A stretch of DNA of 64,000 nt from assembly GCA_012031265.1 (NCBI GenBank), contig JAAUTY010000001.1:62001-126000 (forward strand). The letters are read 5' to 3'. A model generated the notes under the pieces. It was not told the DNA's origin, searched no databases, and saw only the letters and a program-made list of their open reading frames with translations. Below, one piece after another: positions 632 to 36,630 of the stretch; the stretch's first letter is position 1, and each line of letters begins with the position of its first letter. The position numbers and the translations under genes were made by a program. This stretch comes from Spirulinaceae cyanobacterium SM2_1_0. GTDB taxonomy: Bacteria > Cyanobacteriota > Cyanobacteriia > Cyanobacteriales > Spirulinaceae.

Positions 632-847
632 CTAGGGGCGCAGCAACACCCACTCGACGTTTTGGGTCAGGCGATCGCCATCTTGGACACCACTGGCGCG
701 CACTGTGGGGCAACGACGACTGGGTTTACGGCTAATGGGCCGGATGACGCGATCGCCTTGTCTTAGAATGAGGAATGCTGGCTCTCGCGGCAGCGCGAGG
801 TCAGGGAGCGGCGCAACGTTGGAGACTTCCAGCCGACCCCCGCGCGA
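632..847 (-). pseudogene. Coding-like C-terminal fragment antisense to the cysC leader
   Basis: A 71-codon open frame on the minus strand ends with TAG at 632-634 and is closed upstream by TGA at 848-850. It has no ATG and no early GTG or TTG. The translation (for example EVSNVAPLPDLALPREPAF, then LILRQGDRVIRPI, ending VEWVLLRP) reads like real protein, with sensible hydrophobic spacing. It may be the 3' end of a lost gene whose 5' part was replaced when cysC arrived or rearranged. No family is recognised. Chance openness in GC-rich DNA is a real alternative. Confidence 0.25.
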
Positions 848-881
848 TCATTGCGACTCATTTGACTCAGTAGGATATCTC

Positions 882-1415
882 ATGGAGCAACGCGGCGTTA
901 CCATCTGGTTCACTGGTCTCAGTGGAGCAGGCAAAACCACGATCAGCAAATCCCTAGCCGAGGACCTCAGAGCCGCAGGCTACAGGCTCGAAGTGCTGGA
1001 TGGCGACATTGTGCGCACGAATTTGACGAAAGGTCTCGGCTTTAGCAAAGAAGATCGCGACGAAAACATTCGCCGTATCGGCTTTGTTTCCCATCTCCTC
1101 ACTCGCAACGGTGTCATCGTCATCGTCTCCGCGATTTCTCCCTACCGCGCCGTTCGCAACGAAGTGCGTCAGCGCATCGGCGATTTTGTCGAAGTGTTTG
1201 TGAATGCGCCGCTCAGCGTTTGCGAAGATCGGGATGTCAAAGGCTTGTACAAACGGGCGCGGGCCGGTGAAATCAAACAATTTACTGGCATCGACGACCC
1301 CTACGAAGCTCCCGAAAATCCCGAAGTCGAGTGCCGCACCGATCTAGAGGAGATGGCCGACAGCAAGGCAAAAGTCATCGCCAAGCTCCAGGAACTAGGC
1401 TATCTGCCGACCTAG
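882..1415 (+). CDS. cysC: Adenylylsulfate kinase (APS kinase)
   Basis: Phosphorylates adenosine 5'-phosphosulfate with ATP to make PAPS in cytoplasmic sulfate assimilation. From ATG 882 the protein has 177 residues, the usual size for stand-alone CysC. A Walker A loop, GLSGAGKTT, lies at about residues 13-21. The APS-binding signature follows, with LDGDIVRTNL and LGFSKEDRDENIRRIG, then FVNAPLSVCEDRDVKGLYKRARAGEIKQFTGIDDPYE in pieces along the lid region. The frame is open further upstream, but that extension is not CysC-like, and the motif-proximal ATG matches family length. No sulfate-assimilation neighbour is adjacent; cysE is 47 kb away. Confidence 0.93.
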   Translation: MEQRGVTIWFTGLSGAGKTTISKSLAEDLRAAGYRLEVLDGDIVRTNLTKGLGFSKEDRDENIRRIGFVSHLLTRNGVIVIVSAISPYRAVRNEVRQRIGDFVEVFVNAPLSVCEDRDVKGLYKRARAGEIKQFTGIDDPYEAPENPEVECRTDLEEMADSKAKVIAKLQELGYLPT

Positions 1416-1531
1416 GTCGGCCGTCGTGCCCTAGCGGCTTTTGGGCTACTGTGTGAATCCCTCGATAATCCCAGCCGCAAAACGCCGCGATCGCCCCCCT
1501 GATCGCGGTCTTGAAACTGCCCTGTTGGTCA

Positions 1532-3638
1532 ATGGCACTCCTCTCAATTCCCTGGCCCGAAATTCCCGCTTGCGCTTGGCGGCGTCCGCTCGGGCGCGGT
1601 TGGGAAAAACCTGCGACAGCGCTGGCGGGTTGCCTGGATACCGGTCCCTGGCAGGGAATGCCTCTGGGCGGCTTGGGAGCGGGGTGCATCGGGCGATCGC
1701 CCGGGGCGACTTCAATCGCTGGCATCTCGACAGCCGCGAGCCGATGGCTCGCTCTTTGCCGGCTTGCCAATTTGCCGTCTTTGAACAACCGGCTAGTCGT
1801 GAGGCGCAAGCCTATGCGCTCTGTACCGCGCCGCCAGACGATGGCAGCCTGAAGCGCTGGGCCTGGTATCCCCCGGAAAAAGGAACCTACGCCGCCCTCT
1901 ACCCGCGTAGCTGGTTCCACTACCAGGATGTGTTCGCCACCGAGCTGATCTGCGAGCAGTTTTCTCCCGTCTGGGCGCAGTGCTATCAAGAATCCAGCTA
2001 CCCGCTCGCCGTCTTCGACTGGACCGCACGCAATCCGACGGATGAACCGATCACGGTGAGCATTTTGTTGAGCTGGCAGAATGTTGTCGGCTGGTTTGCA
2101 AATGCCCGCGCGGGGCGACGGGCGATCGCACCTATCAGTCCAAGTGGGGCGACAGCACCGGGAATTTCAATCAGTGGATTGTGGATCGCCACCGAGTTGG
2201 CGTCTTGTTCAACCGCGTGCGCCTCTACGACGAGCTGCATCCAGGCGAGGGCCAAATGGCGATCGCCTCGGTCAGCAACCTGGCCGTCGAAAACTTCTAC
2301 CTCAGCCGCTGGGATGCCAGTGGCGAAGGCAGCGAGGTGTGGGACTGGTTTGCCCGTGATGGCTCGCTGCCCGACCGGGAGGACGAGACCCCGGCAGCCC
2401 CCGGCGAACAGATTGCCGCCGCGATGGCGGTGCGCTTCACCCTGCGGCCCGGCCGCACTCGCAAAATCCCCTTCTACCTCGCCTGGGACTTCCCAGTCAT
2501 GGAATTTGCGCCCGGGGTGACCAATTTTCGCCGCCACAGCGACTTCTTTGCCCGCACCGGCAACAATGCCTGGACAATGGTTCGCACTGCCCTCAAGCAC
2601 AGCGATGTCTGGCGCGAGAAGATCGAACACTGGCAAGCCCCGATTATTCAGCATCCTGACTGGCCCGCCTGGTTCCAGCAAGCCCTCTGCAACGAACTGT
2701 ATTTGCTCATCGATGGCGGCACGCTCTGGACGGCAGCGACCGAAACCGCACCAGTGGGTCAGTTCGCCCTACTCGCCAGCCGCGATGACCGCCGCTATGA
2801 GCCGCTCGCCGCTCGCCTCTACGGCTCCCTGGCGCTGCTCTTGCTCTGGCCGCGCCTGGACAAAGCAGTTCTGGAGGCCTTTGCCCGCGCGATTCAAGCC
2901 CACAGCGATGCCCTAGCTGCCGTGATGCCAAGCGATCTGGGCAGCGCTCAGGAGCAACCCTGGGAGCAGGTCGGCGTGACACCCGTGACGGACGCAGCGG
3001 CTGGATTTGACCCTGGCAGCGCCTTCGTGGTGCAGGTCTATCGCAACTTTTTACTCACTGGGGCGACCGACACCGATTTTCTCTGGGAGTGCTGGCCGGC
3101 GATCGCCGCGATCCTGACAACACCACCGACACAACCCACAGCCTCTCGCTGGAGCGCCACCGTCACCAGTATTGCCATTGCCAAGATCCTTAGCGACCAG
3201 CCCCCCAGCGATCCGGCGCTGCAACCGGCCGACTATCCTGGCGAGCTAGAAGCCACAATCACCCGCAGCCGCGACTGGTTGCGCGCCGCAGCGGATCACA
3301 TCGCAGCCGTGGACATGACCGATCCTGAGCGCGATCGCTATGCTCATAGCCTCGAACTCAGCGCAGCAGTTGCCACACAAGCCCCAGCAACAAGTACGAC
3401 CCCACCCCTAGCTGACCAATACCGCCGCGCCGCCGAGCTAGCACGCCACGGCAAACGCACTGAGGCTTGGGCACTGGTGCAACCAGTCGTCGCAACCCTC
3501 TACGAACACGGCTTGCAGTTTCGCTCCCCCGCTATGCTGGCTCCGGATGGTCGCTTCGGTCAGAGCCATGCGCTCGCGGCCTTAGCGATCTGGGCACTCT
3601 ACGGTGCGCTGACGGATGTGCAGCCCCCCGACACATGA
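1532..3638 (+). pseudogene. Decayed GH116 (GBA2-type) glucosylceramidase-like gene, two frameshifts
   Basis: Three frames together spell a GBA2-like protein of about 700 residues. Frame 2 carries the N-terminus (GRGWEKPA, then GMPLGGLGAGCIGRS). Frame 1 carries RGDFNRWHLDSRE to SILLSWQNVVGWFANA. Frame 3 carries STGNFNQWIVDR to the end (AIWALYGALTD). Each switch equals one missing base, near 1700-1706 and near 2111-2117. Independently, the active site is gone. The nucleophile-Glu segment (family form GYLEGQEY) reads ALLASRDD, and the block around the acid/base Asp (family form DQTYDxW) is absent between WPAIAAIL and KILSD. Even with the frame restored it would probably be a pseudoenzyme. The ATG at 1532 is the likely original start. 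Confidence 0.8.
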
Positions 3639-4293
3639 AACGAAGCCGCACTATTGAGCAGTGGTATGGGAAAAGCTTAGGAAAAAATTGCTGCTGCTCA
3701 AGGCAGCGATTTCCCCACTCTTGGGCACCTCGGAAAAACCAAAATCGATGGTGAACTGCGAAAAACCGACCCAGGTTTCAGCCCTCGAAAATTGGCAATC
3801 CCACCATTAATCGAGGTGACCGCTTGCTGCTGACGCAAACCGCGATTGACCTGCCAATCCACCCTCGATCAGGGAACTGAGTTTAGCCTCCGCATTCTCC
3901 GTCACTAGGCGGCGATCGCCTGATTGGATTCAAGCGCTCAACGGTAGCGGCCCATGCAAAAATACTGGATGGACAGCCCCACCATCTTCAGCTTGTTACA
4001 GGAATTTCTCGGCACCAAAACCGGCTTCTCCGAGCAGTACAAAGTCACCGCAACTACAGGGATGCGCGGCATCGGCGACTCCTCAGAGCAAATCAAAGCC
4101 GGCCACCTCGTCCGCCAGACTCGTCCACTCGACCGTGCCCGCGAGATTTCCCCTGATCTGGTCGCTGCAGCGGAGCAGAGCTACCAAAACTGCCGCCAAG
4201 CCTTGCAGGCGCGATGTTACTCGCTCGCCAGCCTTGGCTTGAGTTGCTGACACTCGGCCGACAGTCGTGAGGCATCCGGAAGCATCGTTGCGA
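3639..4293. other. 655-bp spacer with unrecognised coding-like scraps
   Basis: This lies between the GH116 relic and the convergent ABC1 kinase. Plus-strand frames contain short protein-like runs, such as AAAQGSDFPTLGHLGKTKID near 3690-3750 in one frame and a 98-codon ORF at 3954-4250 (MQKYWMDSPTIFSLLQEFLG onward). They need frame changes to join, and no family is recognised. It could be a second decayed gene. I see no clear terminator or known repeat. Confidence 0.3.
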
Positions 4294-29320: not shown

Positions 29321-31720
29321 CTAGTAGGGCCACTTCCAGTCGGTGATCTCGTCTTTGTCGATGCCGTGCTCGTGGGAGTAGTGCAGATTGGACAGGATCT
29401 GGTTCTTCATCCGCTCCTTGGCGTGGGCGGCGGCAGAGCCGAGCTTGGGCACACGGTCGATGACATCGATGACCAGATTGAAACGGTCGATCTGGTTTTC
29501 GATCGCCAACTCCAGCGGCGTATTGATATTGCCCAACTCCTTGTAGCCGCGCACGTGGATACGCTCTTGGTTCGTCCGCCGATAGGTCAACTTGTGGATC
29601 AACCAGGGATAGCCGTGGAAGTTGAAGACTACGGGTTTGTCCGTCGTGAACAGGGTGTCGAAGTCGCGATCCGAGAGACCGTGCGGGTGCTCGGACTCGG
29701 GTAGGAGTTTAAAAAGATCGACGACATTGATGAACCGCACCTTTAGCTCCGGAAATTCCTCACGTAAGATCGCTGTGGCCGCTAGCGACTCCATCGTCGG
29801 CACGTCACCGGCACAAGCCATCACCACATCGGGGATGTCTGGCTCGACGCCACAGTCATCATTGCTCGCCCAGTCCCAGATGCCGATGCCTTTGGTGCAG
29901 TGGGCGATCGCCTGCTCCATGTTCAGATACTGCAAGTGCAACTGCTTGTCGACGACGATGACGTTGACATAATCCTGGCTCTTCAGGCAATGATCCGCGA
30001 CACTCAGCAAGCAGTTGGCATCCGGCGGCAGATAGATGCGCGTGACGCTGGGACTCTTATTGGTCACCACATCCAAGAAGCCGGGATCTTGGTGGCTGAA
30101 GCCATTGTGATCCTGCCGCCAGACCGTGGAGGAGAGCATGATATTCAGCGACGACACCGAGGCGCGCCAGGGAATCTCGCGCTTGCTGATGTCCAACCAT
30201 TTGGCGTGCTGGTTGAACATCGAGTCGATGACATGGGCAAAGGCCTCGTAGGTGTGGAAGAAGCCGTGGCGACCGGTGAGCAGGTAGCCCTCGCACCAGC
30301 CTTCGAGCGTGTGCTCGCTGAGCATTTCCATGACCCGACCCTCGGGCGACAGCTCGCTGCCGTCGAGGTCTTCTTCATAGAATTTCGCCAGCCAGGTCTT
30401 CTTGGTCGCATCGTAGATGTCGCTGAGCCGGTTTGAGGCTGTCTCATCGGGGCCGAAGACCCGGAAGTTGGTCATATTCTGGCGCATCACGTCGCGTAGG
30501 AATTGACCCAAGAGCTTCGTGTTGCTCACTTCGATCTTGCCTGGTTGCTCGACATTGACTGCATACTGGCGGAAATCCGGCAAGCGCAGTTCTTTGCGCA
30601 GCAAGCCGCCGTTAGCGTGAGGATTGGCGCTCATGCGACGGTGACCGCTGGGAGCGAGTTCGCGTAGCTCGGGCAGCAGGCGGCCGTTTTCGTCGAACAG
30701 TTCTTCCGGCTTGTAGCTCCGCAGCCAGTCCTCCAGCACACTCAGGCGATCGGGGTTTTTATGCACATCGCTGAAGGGGACTTGGTGGGCGCGCCAGAAG
30801 CCTTCGACCTTGTGACCGTCGATTGTTTTGGGGCCGGTCCAACCTTTGGGCGATCGCAACACAATCATCGGCCAACGCGGCCGGTGCGCCTGCCCGCTCA
30901 GTCGCGCCTCCCGCTGGATCTCGCGGATACGGGTCACACAAGTTTCCAGAGTCGCCGCCATCTCTTGGTGCATTGCCTCCGGCTCCGAGCCTTCGACGAA
31001 ATACGGCTCATAGCCATAGCCCCGGAATAGCGCTTCGATTTCATCGGGTTCGATGCGCGACAGAATCGTCGGGTTGGCGATCTTGTAGCCATTCAGGTGC
31101 AGAATCGGCAGCACCGCCCCATCCCGAATGGGATTGAGGAACTTGTTGGAGTGCCAAGCGGTAGCCAGCGGGCCGGTTTCCGCTTCGCCGTCGCCAACAA
31201 CGGCGGTGACGATCAGATCAGGATTGTCCAGGGCTGCGCCATAGGCGTGCGAGAGGCAGTAGCCGAGCTCGCCGCCCTCGTGGATCGAGCCCGGGGTCTC
31301 GGGGGTGCAATGGCTGCCGATACCACCGGGGAAGGAAAATTGCTTGAAGAAGCGGAGCATCCCATCAAGGTCTTCACTCTTGTCGGGGTAAACCTCTGAG
31401 TAGGTTCCCTCGAGATAGACCGGGCCGAGGATGCCGGGTGCGCCGTGACCCGGACCAGCCATGTAGATAATGTCGAGATCGTATTTCTTGATTAGCCGGT
31501 TGAGATGGATATAGATGAAGCTCAGACCAGGACTCGTACCCCAGTGACCGAGCAAGCGATGCTTGACGTGCTCAGTGGTCAGCGTCTCGCGCAACAGAGG
31601 ATTGTCGCGGAGGTAGATCATGCCTACGGCCAGATAGTTGCAGGCACGCCAGTAAGCATGAATTTTATCGAGTTCGGCCGCTGAGAGCGGCTGAGATTTG
31701 GGAGGAGCAGCAGCAACCAT
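29321..31720 (-). CDS. xfp: Xylulose-5-phosphate/fructose-6-phosphate phosphoketolase
   Basis: 799 residues from ATG 31720 ([12 protein letters not shown]); the frame is open to 31816, but the family length fits this start. It is a thiamine diphosphate enzyme: [20 protein letters not shown] and [11 protein letters not shown] near the N-terminus, a ThDP-binding [39 protein letters not shown], and a C-terminal region ending [11 protein letters not shown]. It splits Xu5P or F6P with phosphate to acetyl phosphate plus GAP or E4P in the cytoplasm. No acetate kinase or phosphotransacetylase gene is adjacent. Confidence 0.96.
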
Positions 31721-32207
31721 AGCGGTGTTTAAAGATAGGGAAACGTCTAATCTTCTGTCGCCTGAATTACAAATCTGCAATTCGGTTATGCCAAGGCTAA
31801 CGCCAACTCCTGCCAACCCGAACTGCCTTTAGTTTGATTTCAGGGTTCGGGAGCCCAAGCTGGGCGAGGAACTGCCAACGCCCCTGCGCCCACTTGGGTG
31901 CCCATGTGCATAATTCAGAATCCTTAGCGCCGAATTTTAGTCTGCTAAAATGGGTGGGCTGCAGATTGGACAAGGCTTTCCGACTCCTGAAATTTGTGCT
32001 CGCAGTAGCAGTAAAGTTAGGCAAATAAAGATCCTGGGGGATTGTGATGGAAGAACCCCCAAAGTCTTGCTGTACAAGGGATACTTCCCAGTTATCACCC
32101 GCCAAGAACCCAGTATCGCTGAGTGCGATCGCTGCATTGAATTGAGTGCTCATTAAGAAGCTCTGCACGCCGACCGCATGGTTGCCCTCCTCGAGCTAGC
32201 CCGTCGC
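31721..32207. repeat. Spacer with diverged dispersed repeat (31905-32002)
   Basis: The segment 31905-32002 is a diverged copy of 10973-11073 in the same orientation; shared blocks include CCGACTCCTGAAA-like, TCTGC(T/C)AAAAT and GACAAGGC-like strings. The rest of the 487 bp shows no supported gene. It lies upstream of xfp (minus) and downstream of the cNMP-binding gene. Confidence 0.55.
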
Positions 32208-32672
32208 CTAACTCTTGCTCGCGGCCACTGACTTCAGTTGCGCTTCGTAGGTGTTGATTTTACCATTGAGTTCGCGGATGCGGCGCGAGAGGGCGCGGGT
32301 GATGTTGACTGCGATTTCCGGAGTTTCTTCGATGGCGTCGATCAGTTGCAACTGGTTGAGGGTAAGGCAGTCGCAGGTTTCGACCGTGGTGACGGAGGCG
32401 GAGCGCGGCTCGGCGTCGAAGAGTGCCATTTCGCCGAAGAAGGTGCCTTTTTCCAACTGGGCTAGATCGCGATCGCCTAGGTGTACCCGCACGCGACCCG
32501 AAATCACAACGTAAAGCGATCGCCCCTCTTCGCCCTGCTCAAAAATGGTGTGCGCAGCCGGAAATGAGAGTTCGTCCATCGCCGAGGCGAGCTTGACCAA
32601 GAACTCATCCCGCAACTCCTGAAAAATTGAGACGCGCCGGATAAACAGTAGGCGTTCAAAACTGCTTAACAT
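32208..32672 (-). CDS. Cyclic-nucleotide-binding domain protein
   Basis: 154 residues from ATG 32672. A single cNMP domain occupies about residues 10-130: FPAAHTIFEQGEEGRSLYVVISGRVRV, then the phosphate-binding cassette FFGEMALFDAEPRSASVTT with Glu and Arg in the right places, so it should bind cAMP or cGMP. A C-terminal helix (RALSRRIRELNGKINTYEAQLK) could dimerise or dock. It has no DNA-binding or catalytic domain. It lies 134 bp downstream of a transporter/HEAT fusion on the same strand and is probably its regulatory partner, or a split-off domain. Confidence 0.82.
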   Translation of the reverse strand: MLSSFERLLFIRRVSIFQELRDEFLVKLASAMDELSFPAAHTIFEQGEEGRSLYVVISGRVRVHLGDRDLAQLEKGTFFGEMALFDAEPRSASVTTVETCDCLTLNQLQLIDAIEETPEIAVNITRALSRRIRELNGKINTYEAQLKSVAASKS

Positions 32673-32806
32673 AGCGGCTCCCGAGCAGAGGTAAAGGCAG
32701 AGCGCGATCGCGCCCCTGGCAACCATGTATTTGCATCATATCGCAGATATTTCACCGTGCTTCGGTTATCCCCCCTGCTGGCAGCGAGGTCAGCCACGTT
32801 AACAAA

Positions 32807-35791
32807 CTAAGGTCGCAGCTCGACCTTGAGGCGATCGACCTGGGCAGCGACCAGCGGATCGGGGTCGTTTTTCAGCACCGGCAGCAACTCCAGACAGGTG
32901 CGCGGGCTGGCGGCTTTGAGGTAAGACAGCACCGCCTCCCGCACAAAGCTGCTAGCATGACGCAGGCCCAAGAGACTCGCCTCGCGGCTCACGCCCCAAC
33001 GCTGGGCGCGCGCCACATGGAAGCAACAGGCGAGCGTCCAGTCGGAGAGGAAGTAACGCCGCTCCATCAGGTGGCGCAGGCGCTGACTAGGGGCCTGCGC
33101 CTGATAGGGAGCTAGCTCACCAAGATCAGAAAGGCGCTGACGCAGCGGCCGCCGTTCCAGTACCTGCAAAAAGATCTGCTTTTGGGGCACATTGAGCGTA
33201 TTGTCGAGAATTTCGAGACCAAGGGCCATGCTGACCTCGGAATCGGAGGCCAAATTCATCATCGCCGCCTGAATCGTGCTGAACGGATAGAGCAGCTTCA
33301 GCACCAAAAAACAGCGGTCGAAAATATCCGACTGCATCCCCTGCAACGCACCGCGCAACAAATCGGCTTCGCGACCCAGCACCTGCTCGGTATTGAGATC
33401 GAGCTCAGCCGCATAAACTTGAGCGAGGAGCAACAGTTCCTGCTCGAACATCGTCTCGACGCCGCTGCGACCGAGGCGATCCAGCACCACTTCGATGCCG
33501 CGATCGCCCGGGATCTTCAGCAAAATCCGTAACAGATTGCGCCGCGAAGTACCCCAACTGGCGAGTAAATGTTGGATGAGCTGCGTCAAGGCAGCGTCGG
33601 ACTCGATCTCCGCCATCGCATTCCAGGCCTGCAAGCGGATGAAATCGGGCCGGCGCACGTCAGCCGCGAGCTTGCTCAGCAGCGGTAGGGCATCGTCCTG
33701 CAAGCGCACCAGCGATCGCCGTGCCGCTTCCCGCGTCGAGCGGTAGGACAGGCCCTTGAGCAGTGAGGGGTAATAATCCTGGAGGCGGCGAGTGGCGATC
33801 GCCTCCAACAAGGCACAACGCACCCGCGCCGACTCATCCTGAAGCAGGTTCGGCACATAGCTGCGAACCAGAGCATCATCCGCCGTCGCGGCTTGCAGCG
33901 CTTGCACGCCGACCACCCGCTCGCGCTCCCGCCGCGAGGCCAACATTTGCTCCAGCGCGTAACGAGCTTCCTGACGCTCGGCAGGCAGCCCGCGACTGAG
34001 AATGAGCCCCGCTGCTGTCCCCCGCACCATCGGATCAACACGCTCGTGCAGGTAAGGTTTCAGCGTCAGTGTCTCCAGCTCTGGCTGCGCCATCCAGATG
34101 TAGCGCAGGGCAGCCGCCAAGACTTCAAGATCGGGCTTCGTCTCGATCAAGCGCTGGACATCGGCGAGGTGGGTGATGGCAGGGTATTGCAGCATCACAG
34201 TCATACTCTGGCGCTGCAAGCGCGGCGAGAAGCGAGCCAGACGCGGGGCGAGAATTTCGCCCGCACCGGCGGGATCGATGCGTTCGAGCAGTTGTAGACA
34301 GGAGAGTTGGTCATCCTCATTGCTCTGCTGGTCAAAGGCTTCGACAATGGCGCGCTTGAAGGCCTTGAGATCGACATTCGAGAAGCCCAACCGCCCCTGC
34401 TCCGCACTCTGGACGAGCAAGCTCACGTAGCTCCGCCGCAGTAACAAAGCACAACTCGCCCAGACAATAGAGAAGAAGACGATCGCCAGCACAAAGAAAC
34501 CACCGCGCACCTGACGGAGTTCTTCGATACCCAAAGTGTCGAAGAGGCGAGGAATCAGCCAGACCACGCCGAGGATGCCAGCGCCAGTGAGACCCGTGGA
34601 GAGCGGCTCGGCGATGCCCTGAACTTGGGTCTGAATATCGCTGCGTAGCTCGACTGGAATCGGCTGGAACAAAAAGGGTTCAATCCCGGCAATCAGCGTG
34701 TAGCGCAACAGTTCGTCAAAAAACTTCAGGACAATCGCCCCGAAAAAGAGGATCTGAGCACTGTCAACAGTCAAGAAGCCGCCAAGATCAAAGAGGATGG
34801 TGAAGAGGCCGAGAACCGACAGCGACACCGGCAGGAACATCGCGGCAATGAACACGCCCAAGCGTTCGACGGCGCGACTGGAGACGAACCACTGCGTAAT
34901 CAGCTCGAAGATACCCAGGACGCCGGAAAATAGACCGAGGAAACCGGCGATTTCATCCGTATCGGGATAGACGCGCTCCAGTTCGCCGAGGTATTGGAAT
35001 TCCACCAACAGGAACAAGACCTCGCCCAAAATGAAGAAAGCGAAGAGCGGGATGACATAGCGACGCAGCATCCCGCCCGTGCGGCGAGCGCTGTAGGCTG
35101 TTTGCGGATCGTCGAGTTCCCGCACCGGTGTATCGGGAAAGGCTTGCTTGTAGCGATTGCTCAGATACAGCAGCATCCCACCGCCGAGCAAGATCATGAG
35201 AGCGGCAGCAATCAGGACATTCTCCAGCCCGATCAACAGCAGCATCAGCGGCAGCGAGAAGCCAGAGACAACATCCCCGACTAGCAGGCCACTGGAAATA
35301 ATCGGGTAGGCGCGCTTGATCTCGCGGATGTTGAACAGTTGGTTGGCAGCGACCTGGGAGTTGAGATCATTGAGGATCTCTTCAGCATCCATCCAGAGCC
35401 GCAGGATGAAGACGGTGACCAGGATGAGGAGGCTGTTGGTGGGATCGATGCCGATGCCGATCCGGAAGAACAGTAGCGGCAGCGCCATGAGCAAGGCGAT
35501 CACCAAAAACACCCGCTTCAGCGGCAAATTATTTTGCAGCCAAGAGTAAAGCACCCCCAGACCCGATCCCATCAAGGCGCTGGCAATGTAAATCAAGGGC
35601 AGACCGCCGGCCCCAAATTGCGCCAGAAATAAGGCGATGGTCGTCTGCTCCAGCCAGAGCAAGCCCACTGAAGTAATGGTGTAGAAGGCGAACATCAAAA
35701 AAGTTCGTTCGCCTTCCTCCGGTCGGAGATTGAGCAGTGTTAGTAGCCTGCGTCCCCACTCCCCTCGTCCGTTTGCACTCCTCGTTTTCAT
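32807..35791 (-). CDS. Nucleotide-transporter-like (Npt1/2, MFS-type) membrane protein fused to HEAT repeats
   Basis: 994 residues. About residues 30-470 form a polytopic domain with about 11-12 helices (for example TFLMFAFYTITSVGLLWLE, IYIASALMGSGLGVLYSWL, VFLVIALLMALPLLFF) that resembles ATP/ADP-translocase-type transporters. The remaining 500 residues are soluble alpha-helical repeats with HEAT character: VRGTAAGLILSRGLP, ERVVGVQALQAAT, ARVRCALLEAIATRRLQDYYP. HEAT arrays usually bind protein partners. The substrate is unknown. infC ends 77 bp upstream and the cNMP-binding gene follows, so a small regulated transport unit is inferred. Confidence 0.75.
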   Translation of the reverse strand: MKTRSANGRGEWGRRLLTLLNLRPEEGERTFLMFAFYTITSVGLLWLEQTTIALFLAQFGAGGLPLIYIASALMGSGLGVLYSWLQNNLPLKRVFLVIALLMALPLLFFRIGIGIDPTNSLLILVTVFILRLWMDAEEILNDLNSQVAANQLFNIREIKRAYPIISSGLLVGDVVSGFSLPLMLLLIGLENVLIAAALMILLGGGMLLYLSNRYKQAFPDTPVRELDDPQTAYSARRTGGMLRRYVIPLFAFFILGEVLFLLVEFQYLGELERVYPDTDEIAGFLGLFSGVLGIFELITQWFVSSRAVERLGVFIAAMFLPVSLSVLGLFTILFDLGGFLTVDSAQILFFGAIVLKFFDELLRYTLIAGIEPFLFQPIPVELRSDIQTQVQGIAEPLSTGLTGAGILGVVWLIPRLFDTLGIEELRQVRGGFFVLAIVFFSIVWASCALLLRRSYVSLLVQSAEQGRLGFSNVDLKAFKRAIVEAFDQQSNEDDQLSCLQLLERIDPAGAGEILAPRLARFSPRLQRQSMTVMLQYPAITHLADVQRLIETKPDLEVLAAALRYIWMAQPELETLTLKPYLHERVDPMVRGTAAGLILSRGLPAERQEARYALEQMLASRRERERVVGVQALQAATADDALVRSYVPNLLQDESARVRCALLEAIATRRLQDYYPSLLKGLSYRSTREAARRSLVRLQDDALPLLSKLAADVRRPDFIRLQAWNAMAEIESDAALTQLIQHLLASWGTSRRNLLRILLKIPGDRGIEVVLDRLGRSGVETMFEQELLLLAQVYAAELDLNTEQVLGREADLLRGALQGMQSDIFDRCFLVLKLLYPFSTIQAAMMNLASDSEVSMALGLEILDNTLNVPQKQIFLQVLERRPLRQRLSDLGELAPYQAQAPSQRLRHLMERRYFLSDWTLACCFHVARAQRWGVSREASLLGLRHASSFVREAVLSYLKAASPRTCLELLPVLKNDPDPLVAAQVDRLKVELRP

Positions 35792-35868
35792 GCCCTCGGC
35801 CGCTAGGCGGCAGCCTCTCCGCGTCCTGTAGCACGCGGGCGACTGACCGAATTACTGCAAAGCTGCGC

Positions 35869-36405
35869 CTACTTTTTCGGCGACAGCAGCATCATCATAT
35901 TACGGCCTTCGCGCTTCGGTGCTTGCTGTAACTCCGCAACATCCTCAAGATCAGCCGCCATGCGCTTCAGCAGATCCTCCGCTAGATTGGTGTGCTGAAT
36001 CTCACGGCCCCGGAAAGTAATGGTCGCCTTGACCTTATCGCCTGATTTAAGAAAGCGCTGGGCATTCTTGACGCGCACCTGATAGTCGTGGTCGTCAATC
36101 TTATAGCGCATCTTCACTTCCTTAACATCCGCAGTGTGCTGCTTCTTGCGAGCCTCCCGCGCCCGTTTCTCCTGTTCAAACTTGTATTTGCCATAGTCCA
36201 TAATCCGGCAGACCGGTGGATCGGCTTTGTCACTGACGAGAACGAGATCCAGCTCCTTCTCTTGTGCCAGGCGACGACCTTCTTCGGAGGCAACGATACC
36301 CAGTTGTCCGCCGTCAGTGTCGATTAGACGAATGTTCGGGAAGCGGATGCGCTCATTGATCTGGGGCGCGTCGGAACGGGTTCTTCGGCTGTCTTTCACA
36401 GGCAT
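35869..36405 (-). CDS. infC: Translation initiation factor IF-3
   Basis: 178 residues. The N-terminal domain ([23 protein letters not shown]), the linker helix ([16 protein letters not shown]) and the C-terminal domain ([42 protein letters not shown] in pieces) are complete. It binds the 30S subunit and discriminates start codons. Unlike E. coli infC, which begins at AUU, this copy begins with ATG. No rpmI-rplT follows; the transporter/HEAT gene does. IF-3 is relevant to the AUU-start STAS gene at 11314. Confidence 0.94.
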
Positions 36406-36630
36406 ATTTCGGTTTTAGGTTGCAGCAATCACTTAACTCTGGATAAGGTTTGGCAATGGAATTCCGGCGAATCCTACTGTCATTGTACTGACTCCGACCG
36501 GATTTCGTATGGCCTCTGTTAACGTAACTTTGTGTTCGCCGCTCTGGCAGCCGCTGGGCCGTGCGTCCAACGGTAGTCAGTCGCAGGGCTTGAGAGTGAG
36601 CAGATGTCACAGGTTTCCCGGAGATGCCAA

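Follow-up and report, generated by a model that had tools for sequence, protein, structure and literature searches.

A putative cyclic-nucleotide-controlled carrier composed of an NTT-HEAT protein and a co-retained cyclic-nucleotide-binding partner in cyanobacteria

Introduction

Two neighbouring genes of Spirulinaceae cyanobacterium SM2_1_0 were analysed, namely the gene of an NTT-HEAT protein, in which a membrane domain with the fold of ATP/ADP translocators is joined to a tail of HEAT repeats, and the gene of a small protein with a cyclic-nucleotide-binding domain (cNBD). Both are located on the minus strand of a stretch of 64,000 nucleotides (contig JAAUTY010000001.1, positions 62,001 to 126,000), which is called the window in the following and whose positions are used for all coordinates. 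Judged from their distribution over genomes, NTT-HEAT and its cNBD partner very likely work as one unit, because both genes are kept or lost together even when they are far apart. With a probability of about one half, the pair is read here as a cyclic-nucleotide-controlled carrier of the major facilitator superfamily (MFS) type, which would consist of two obligate partners, the cNBD protein acting on the HEAT solenoid, and whose cargo would not be ATP/ADP via the known site.

Proteins of this kind have been described by Major, Embley and Williams in 2017 (PMC5381601), who reported NTT-HEAT, in some cases with a directly following cNBD gene, as well as fused forms, assigned them to two cyanobacterial clades with a presence mainly in sections III-V, and proposed that cAMP adjusts transport. 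Judging from the main text of that paper, the domains and their order are the same as here and the architecture shows no difference, so that the architecture, the adjacency, the fused forms and the idea of a cAMP-controlled NTT-HEAT are already published. The present analysis adds counted co-retention without linkage, a fusion inside the split subfamily, the neighbour infC and a test of the substrate residues; the terms 'infC', 'initiation factor', 'co-occur', 'K155' and 'lysine' are absent from the main text of PMC5381601. In the open-licence literature the term 'NTT-HEAT' was found only in Major et al. and in a diatom review citing them, and no functional study of NTT-HEAT was among the titles listed there.

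Co-retention of NTT-HEAT and its cNBD partner

The first sample comprised 386 genomes of the phylum and was searched with the window protein, with an NTT-HEAT profile and with a cNBD profile. The window protein gave 75 matches at 1e-20. NTT-HEAT of this subfamily was present in 75 of the 386 genomes, and the family cNBD was present in the identical 75. Membership was assigned as follows. The NTT-HEAT profile matched 99 genomes, of which 75 were counted, including G215 with the gene on two contig pieces and G284 with a gene cut by rearrangement, while the 24 uncounted matches were one fragment (G022), four divergent proteins (G004, G013, G018, G032) and 19 HEAT-only proteins. The cNBD profile matched 107 genomes, and the threshold for the family cNBD was set at 244 bits or more, which was reached in 75 genomes, the next best match and thus the upper limit of the other 32 being 166 bits. 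The Pfam model PF03219 alone detects only 21 of the 386 genomes and is therefore a poor counter for the NTT-HEAT family.

The same distribution was found in a denser sample of 99 genomes of family f6, with both genes in 82 and neither in 17; here the NTT-HEAT search matched 88 genomes, comprising 82 members and 6 with fragments or HEAT-only proteins. Since 30 of these 99 genomes were already part of the first sample, the union amounts to 455 genomes, of which 131 carry both genes, 324 neither and none one gene alone, where 'neither' refers to the genes of this subfamily and some such genomes carry distant fusions. The original prediction on this locus had staked its idea of a split transporter on the co-occurrence of the two genes, and all 131 genomes with one gene do carry the other.

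The distance between the genes varies widely. Of the 131 genomes, 72 have the cNBD gene on the strand of NTT-HEAT and no more than 1.5 kb downstream of it, 6 have it at 2-12 kb, and in 53 the two genes are far apart or on different contigs. Outside family f6 the close arrangement is the rule (37 of 41 genomes); within f6 it was found in 35 of 90, with 5 genomes at 2-12 kb and 50 with genes far apart or on different contigs; the latter applies to 27 of the 50, an outcome that can mask linkage in draft assemblies. Since the cNBD gene is distant or on another contig in 53 of 131 genomes, linkage fails as the cause of the co-retention.

Decay affects both genes. In ten genera of f6 the pair is absent from one or more genomes, among them G103 of genus g11. 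Fragments of NTT-HEAT were found in G022, G103, G425 (a draft with 89% completeness) and G436, where the family cNBD was not found, and a fragment of the cNBD gene was found in G087, where NTT-HEAT was not found. In G022, G103 and G436 the NTT-HEAT fragment still adjoins infC.

HpsA served as a control for genome reduction in f6, where 11 of the 17 pair-free genomes contain it. At an E-value of 1e-3 it was missing in 6 of these 17 and in 2 of the 82 genomes that carry the pair (Fisher p 2.5e-4, uncorrected for ancestry), and two further pair-carrying genomes, G385 and G424, possess no more than sub-threshold pieces of HpsA. A link of the pair to hormogonia, suggested by the mostly filamentous named relatives, was tested via HpsA in f6 and dropped, HpsA being only loosely associated.

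Fusions of NTT-HEAT and cNBD

The original prediction pointed to cyanobacterial homologues in which such domains are combined, and proteins of this type were recovered here. Inside the split subfamily, NTT-HEAT and cNBD are naturally joined in one frame of genome G412 without a linker (L207, positions 717-4175; 1153 amino acids), and this protein scored 1439 bits with the NTT-HEAT profile and 264 bits with the cNBD profile. In Pfam its HEAT and cNMP parts were detected and TLC was not. More distant fusions are present in G070, G368, G054 and G121 (1054-1091 amino acids) and in G004, G018 and G038 (1052-1097 amino acids). The NTT-HEAT profile missed those of G070, G368, G054 and G121, which were found via the cNBD profile, probably due to a membrane part that has diverged too far. 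In addition, single-domain TLC proteins of 516-563 amino acids were observed in genomes that contain divergent NTT-HEAT proteins as well (L109, L121, L123 and L124 in G004, G018 and G032).

The cNBD protein

The open frame of the cNBD gene extends from its first ATG over positions 32208-32726 (minus strand; 172 amino acids). The true start is probably at 32672, because the Met of an internal MLSSFERLLF is Met in all 24 aligned sequences, window included, with variable letters in front of it, and because the ribosome-binding-site-like GGGAG (32678-32682, minus strand) is located 5 bases ahead of this ATG. The probable coding region thus covers 32208-32672 on the minus strand and encodes 154 amino acids, and the gap to NTT-HEAT is probably 134 nt instead of 80 nt.

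In the 172-aa frame cNMP_binding is the sole Pfam match above cut-off (72.6 bits, cut-off 27.5), which means that a helix-turn-helix domain was not found by this search, and the full-length CRP/FNR models of NCBIfam remained far below their cut-offs. The C-terminal helix-turn-helix by which CRP/FNR transcription factors are recognized was thus not detected. The phosphate-binding cassette FGEMALFDAEPRSASVT (32388-32438, minus strand) contains Gly80, Glu81, Arg90 and Ser91 in the numbering of the 154-aa protein. Its pattern FGEM..FD...RSA is intact, and Gly, Glu, Arg and Ser are invariant in 53 of 53 distinct stand-alone homologues, window included; the Glu and Arg of the cassette characterize a cyclic-nucleotide-binding domain. 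The intact cassette named in the original prediction was thus confirmed, and only the start of the gene probably needs correction. These residues suggest that the protein binds a cyclic nucleotide, which by analogy to the Arg-Ser of the CRP cassette would presumably be cAMP rather than cGMP. The best profile matches in the PDB are domains of PKG and PKA, and SthK (7rtf) is among the matches.

The source genome (5.03 Mb in 149 contigs) contains 11 matches to the cNMP domain, one of them in this cNBD family, and a single TLC match. Paralogues of the cNBD protein scoring 154-167 bits were observed in G213 (L192 and L193, in tandem) and in G085 and G241 (L190 and L191); in the latter two genomes NTT-HEAT was not found by the profile searches.

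Fold and substrate residues of NTT-HEAT

The 994-residue protein combining a transporter with HEAT repeats was borne out by the open reading frame at 32807-35791 (minus strand), by Pfam, by profile matches and by an AlphaFold2 model. The Pfam TLC ATP/ADP transporter model scored 37.6 bits (cut-off 21) and covers residues 245-330 only, whereas HEAT_2 (26.9 bits, cut-off 27.7) and HEAT (18.6 bits, cut-off 23.5) remained below their cut-offs; among PDB entries, the profile of the NTT-HEAT family matched alphaRep proteins, which are artificial and HEAT-like. The model was calculated from 27 sequences and reached a mean predicted local distance difference test score (pLDDT) of 85.6 and a predicted template modelling score (pTM) of 0.58. 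Its helices are long and of membrane type as far as residue 464, and residues 475-992 form short helical pairs; the low pTM makes the placement of the membrane part relative to the solenoid uncertain. Accordingly delimited, the MFS-type NTT/TLC membrane domain (residues ~11-464) is encoded at 34400-35761 and the HEAT-like helical solenoid (residues ~475-992) at 32816-34369, both on the minus strand. By analogy to the MFS layout, the solenoid would be cytosolic.

Among solved structures ATP/ADP translocators come closest, with AtNTT1 (9j3l) at the top (Z 36.0; root-mean-square deviation 3.1 over 425 aligned residues; residues 11-463 of the window protein), followed by 9j3m (Z 34.3) and 9j3n (Z 33.7, the value for Chlamydia NTT1), while MFS folds other than translocators reached Z 26.6 and below, LacY being the best of them. 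Together with the TLC match above the curated cut-off, this makes membership of the predicted structure in the NTT/TLC fold family (PF03219) sound, despite an identity of ~15%. The combination with C-terminal HEAT repeats, which the Pfam HEAT models place below their cut-offs here, and the cNBD directly downstream in the window or fused in G412 assign the protein to the NTT-HEAT family.

The key charged residues of AtNTT1 are reported to be K155, E245, E385 and K527 (PMC4256464), and of its mutants K155E binds neither nucleotide, K155R does not bind ADP and K527E does not bind ATP (PMC3306366). The corresponding places were taken from profile alignments with solved chains, in which K527 falls on Thr399 and E385 on Glu264. 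For K155 the alignments contain a one-residue insertion directly ahead of Tyr68; this residue is taken to be the Lys of a PF-I/L-K motif of the plant sequence. At the K155 place, no Lys or Arg occurs at columns 64-74 in any of 88 distinct homologues, window included, and Tyr68 is Tyr in all 84 homologues that are ungapped there. Likewise, columns 396-403 around the K527 place are free of Lys and Arg in 88 of 88. Lys at both places, as expected of a nucleotide transporter, is thus found neither in the window protein nor in the aligned homologues. Basic residues occur nearby in some of them (Lys63 in 14, Arg45 in 34 and Lys395 in 6 of 88). The E385 place is acidic in 87 of 87 (58 Asp, 29 Glu, the window protein having Glu) and was counted as retained, and for E245 the two profile alignments place helix 4 differently. 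As both nucleotide-binding lysines are gone, ATP/ADP exchange through the known site is unlikely for these sequences.

Gene layout and neighbouring genes

The three open reading frames share the minus strand and follow each other in the order infC, NTT-HEAT and cNBD gene. At the end of NTT-HEAT a weak terminator-like stem with 7 pairs and a poor T run was detected by a terminator scan (32809-32827, minus strand), which could lower read-through into the cNBD gene. An operon test by promoter and terminator scans of 32100-36500 gave no clear excess, with 2 promoter-like sites against 1.3 and 8 terminator-like sites against 4.3 in shuffled sequences (standard deviation of the latter 2.1).

The gene infC for translation initiation factor IF-3 (35869-36405, minus strand; Pfam) is a conserved upstream neighbour. 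Of 75 genomes, 62 have it immediately upstream of NTT-HEAT, on its strand and at a distance of no more than 1 kb; of the other 13, one has it at 1.1 kb, 11 yielded no infC despite at least 700 nt of upstream sequence, and one was undecided. A set of 77 sequences, partly duplicates, gave a median gap between infC and NTT-HEAT of 303 nt, and the adjacency also holds in f6, in spite of the frequent relocation of the cNBD gene there. Co-transcription and merely old gene order would both account for it. In a shared-neighbour search, an alpha/beta hydrolase beyond infC was matched in 49 of 98 loci, and after infC and this hydrolase the next groups were common to at most 11 loci.

Downstream of the cNBD gene, the window contains a phosphoketolase gene (XFP; 29321-31816, minus strand; Pfam) and, between the two, a 123-aa frame without a Pfam match (31797-32168, minus strand), which may not be a gene. 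The nearest named relatives of the source organism are Spirulina at 72-73% identity, and the named relatives are mostly filamentous genera.

Discussion

From the two genes, the predicted fold, the cassette, the co-retention and the fusion we infer binding, docking, gating and a cytosolic side as follows. The membrane protein would be an MFS carrier of NTT/TLC fold whose HEAT solenoid faces the cytosol, and the small cNBD protein would bind a cyclic nucleotide, more likely cAMP than cGMP, as its sensor subunit. This subunit would dock on the solenoid, and bound cyclic nucleotide would alter its hold, so that the level of cyclic nucleotide would decide on the activity of the carrier. The cargo would be something other than ATP/ADP via the known site, in keeping with the loss of two lysines and the retention of the acidic pathway residue. 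Of the split cAMP-gated transporter that was originally proposed, the functional link and the occurrence of fused relatives are well supported and gating by cAMP is kept as a conditional step, while a nucleotide cargo like that of ATP/ADP translocators has become unlikely. Tentatively, the pair may stand for a bacterial secondary carrier with a cargo other than ATP/ADP that is under direct cyclic-nucleotide control by a separate obligate sensor subunit, the loss of either entailing the loss of the other.

Several points weigh against this controlled carrier. Shared ancestry inflates the co-occurrence counts and any p-value, and the loose tie of HpsA to the pair suggests that the pattern may partly reflect genome reduction. 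In G284 (L096, L097) the end of NTT-HEAT was severed by a rearrangement and the cNBD gene is still present, so that a partner can outlive damage at least temporarily; the gene is cut near residue 875-885, the remainder is 535 kb away, and transposase-like 133-aa frames (Pfam HTH_Tnp_4) of equal length and start are found near both breaks. Co-transcription is only putative, given the many genomes with unlinked genes and the weak terminator-like stem between the two genes in the window. In the distant cyanobacterial fusions L186, L187, L188 and L195, the last of which is split over two frames, the Arg-Ser pair is missing from the cassette (APHWESA); their domain may no longer bind cyclic nucleotide, and binding is thus no rule in the wider family. 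Among further loci, the cassette of L185 reads APRWDSA, and L199, L201 and L189 keep the Arg followed by Leu. Finally, missing lysines are no proof that nucleotide transport was lost.

It is rather unlikely that transport by the membrane domain has ceased and that this domain is now a membrane anchor or receptor, by which the HEAT solenoid and its cNBD partner are made accessible to other proteins. The loss of both substrate lysines would fit this role, as would the solenoid, which equals the membrane domain in size and roughly also in conservation (mean column identity 50% overall and 52% in the membrane part). However, the charged residues R306, D359, E360 and R383 of the membrane domain are fixed in at least 85 of 88 homologues, as expected for a working carrier. 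Unlikely as well, and slightly more so, is a true transporter of nucleotides, ATP/ADP or other, that is tuned by cAMP as proposed by Major et al. in 2017. Its fold is indeed closest to ATP/ADP translocators, with AtNTT1 and Chlamydia NTT1 well ahead of the next MFS fold, TLC is above its cut-off, the E385 place is always acidic, and two microsporidian NTTs are reported to deviate at three of the four charged residues (PMC4256464); against this stands the absence of Lys and Arg from both lysine places in all 88 homologues, with basic residues nearby in some, since both lysines are needed for binding in AtNTT1. That the genes are mere neighbours without a functional tie, as their separate frames, the 134-nt gap and the stem might suggest, is highly improbable in view of the complete co-occurrence, also among the 53 genomes with distant genes or genes on different contigs, the decay of both genes and the fusions.

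In bacteria most effects of cAMP are exerted via the transcription factor CRP (PMC10117731), and cAMP was reported to promote gliding and mat formation in Spirulina platensis (cited in PMC4284465). If true, direct action of a cyclic nucleotide on a membrane carrier through such a two-gene unit would give cyanobacteria a route besides CRP. Moreover, the co-retention points to the right co-expression partner for NTT-HEAT, and the missing lysines advise against presuming ATP as cargo.

Among known systems, AtNTT1 and Chlamydia pneumoniae NTT1 (PDB 9j3j, 9j3l-9j3o) share the fold of the window protein over ~425 residues, but the latter is only ~15% identical, has lost both nucleotide-binding lysines and possesses an extra HEAT tail and a cNBD partner. 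The cNBD protein has the cNMP fold and the cassette in common with CRP/FNR and with the domains of PKA and PKG, but according to Pfam it contains neither a DNA-binding domain nor a kinase. In SthK (7rtf) a cytosolic cNBD controls a membrane protein, and the pair in the window would by analogy work likewise; however, the cNBD of SthK is fused to a channel, whereas the cNBD of the pair is a protein of its own and its membrane partner shows an MFS fold.

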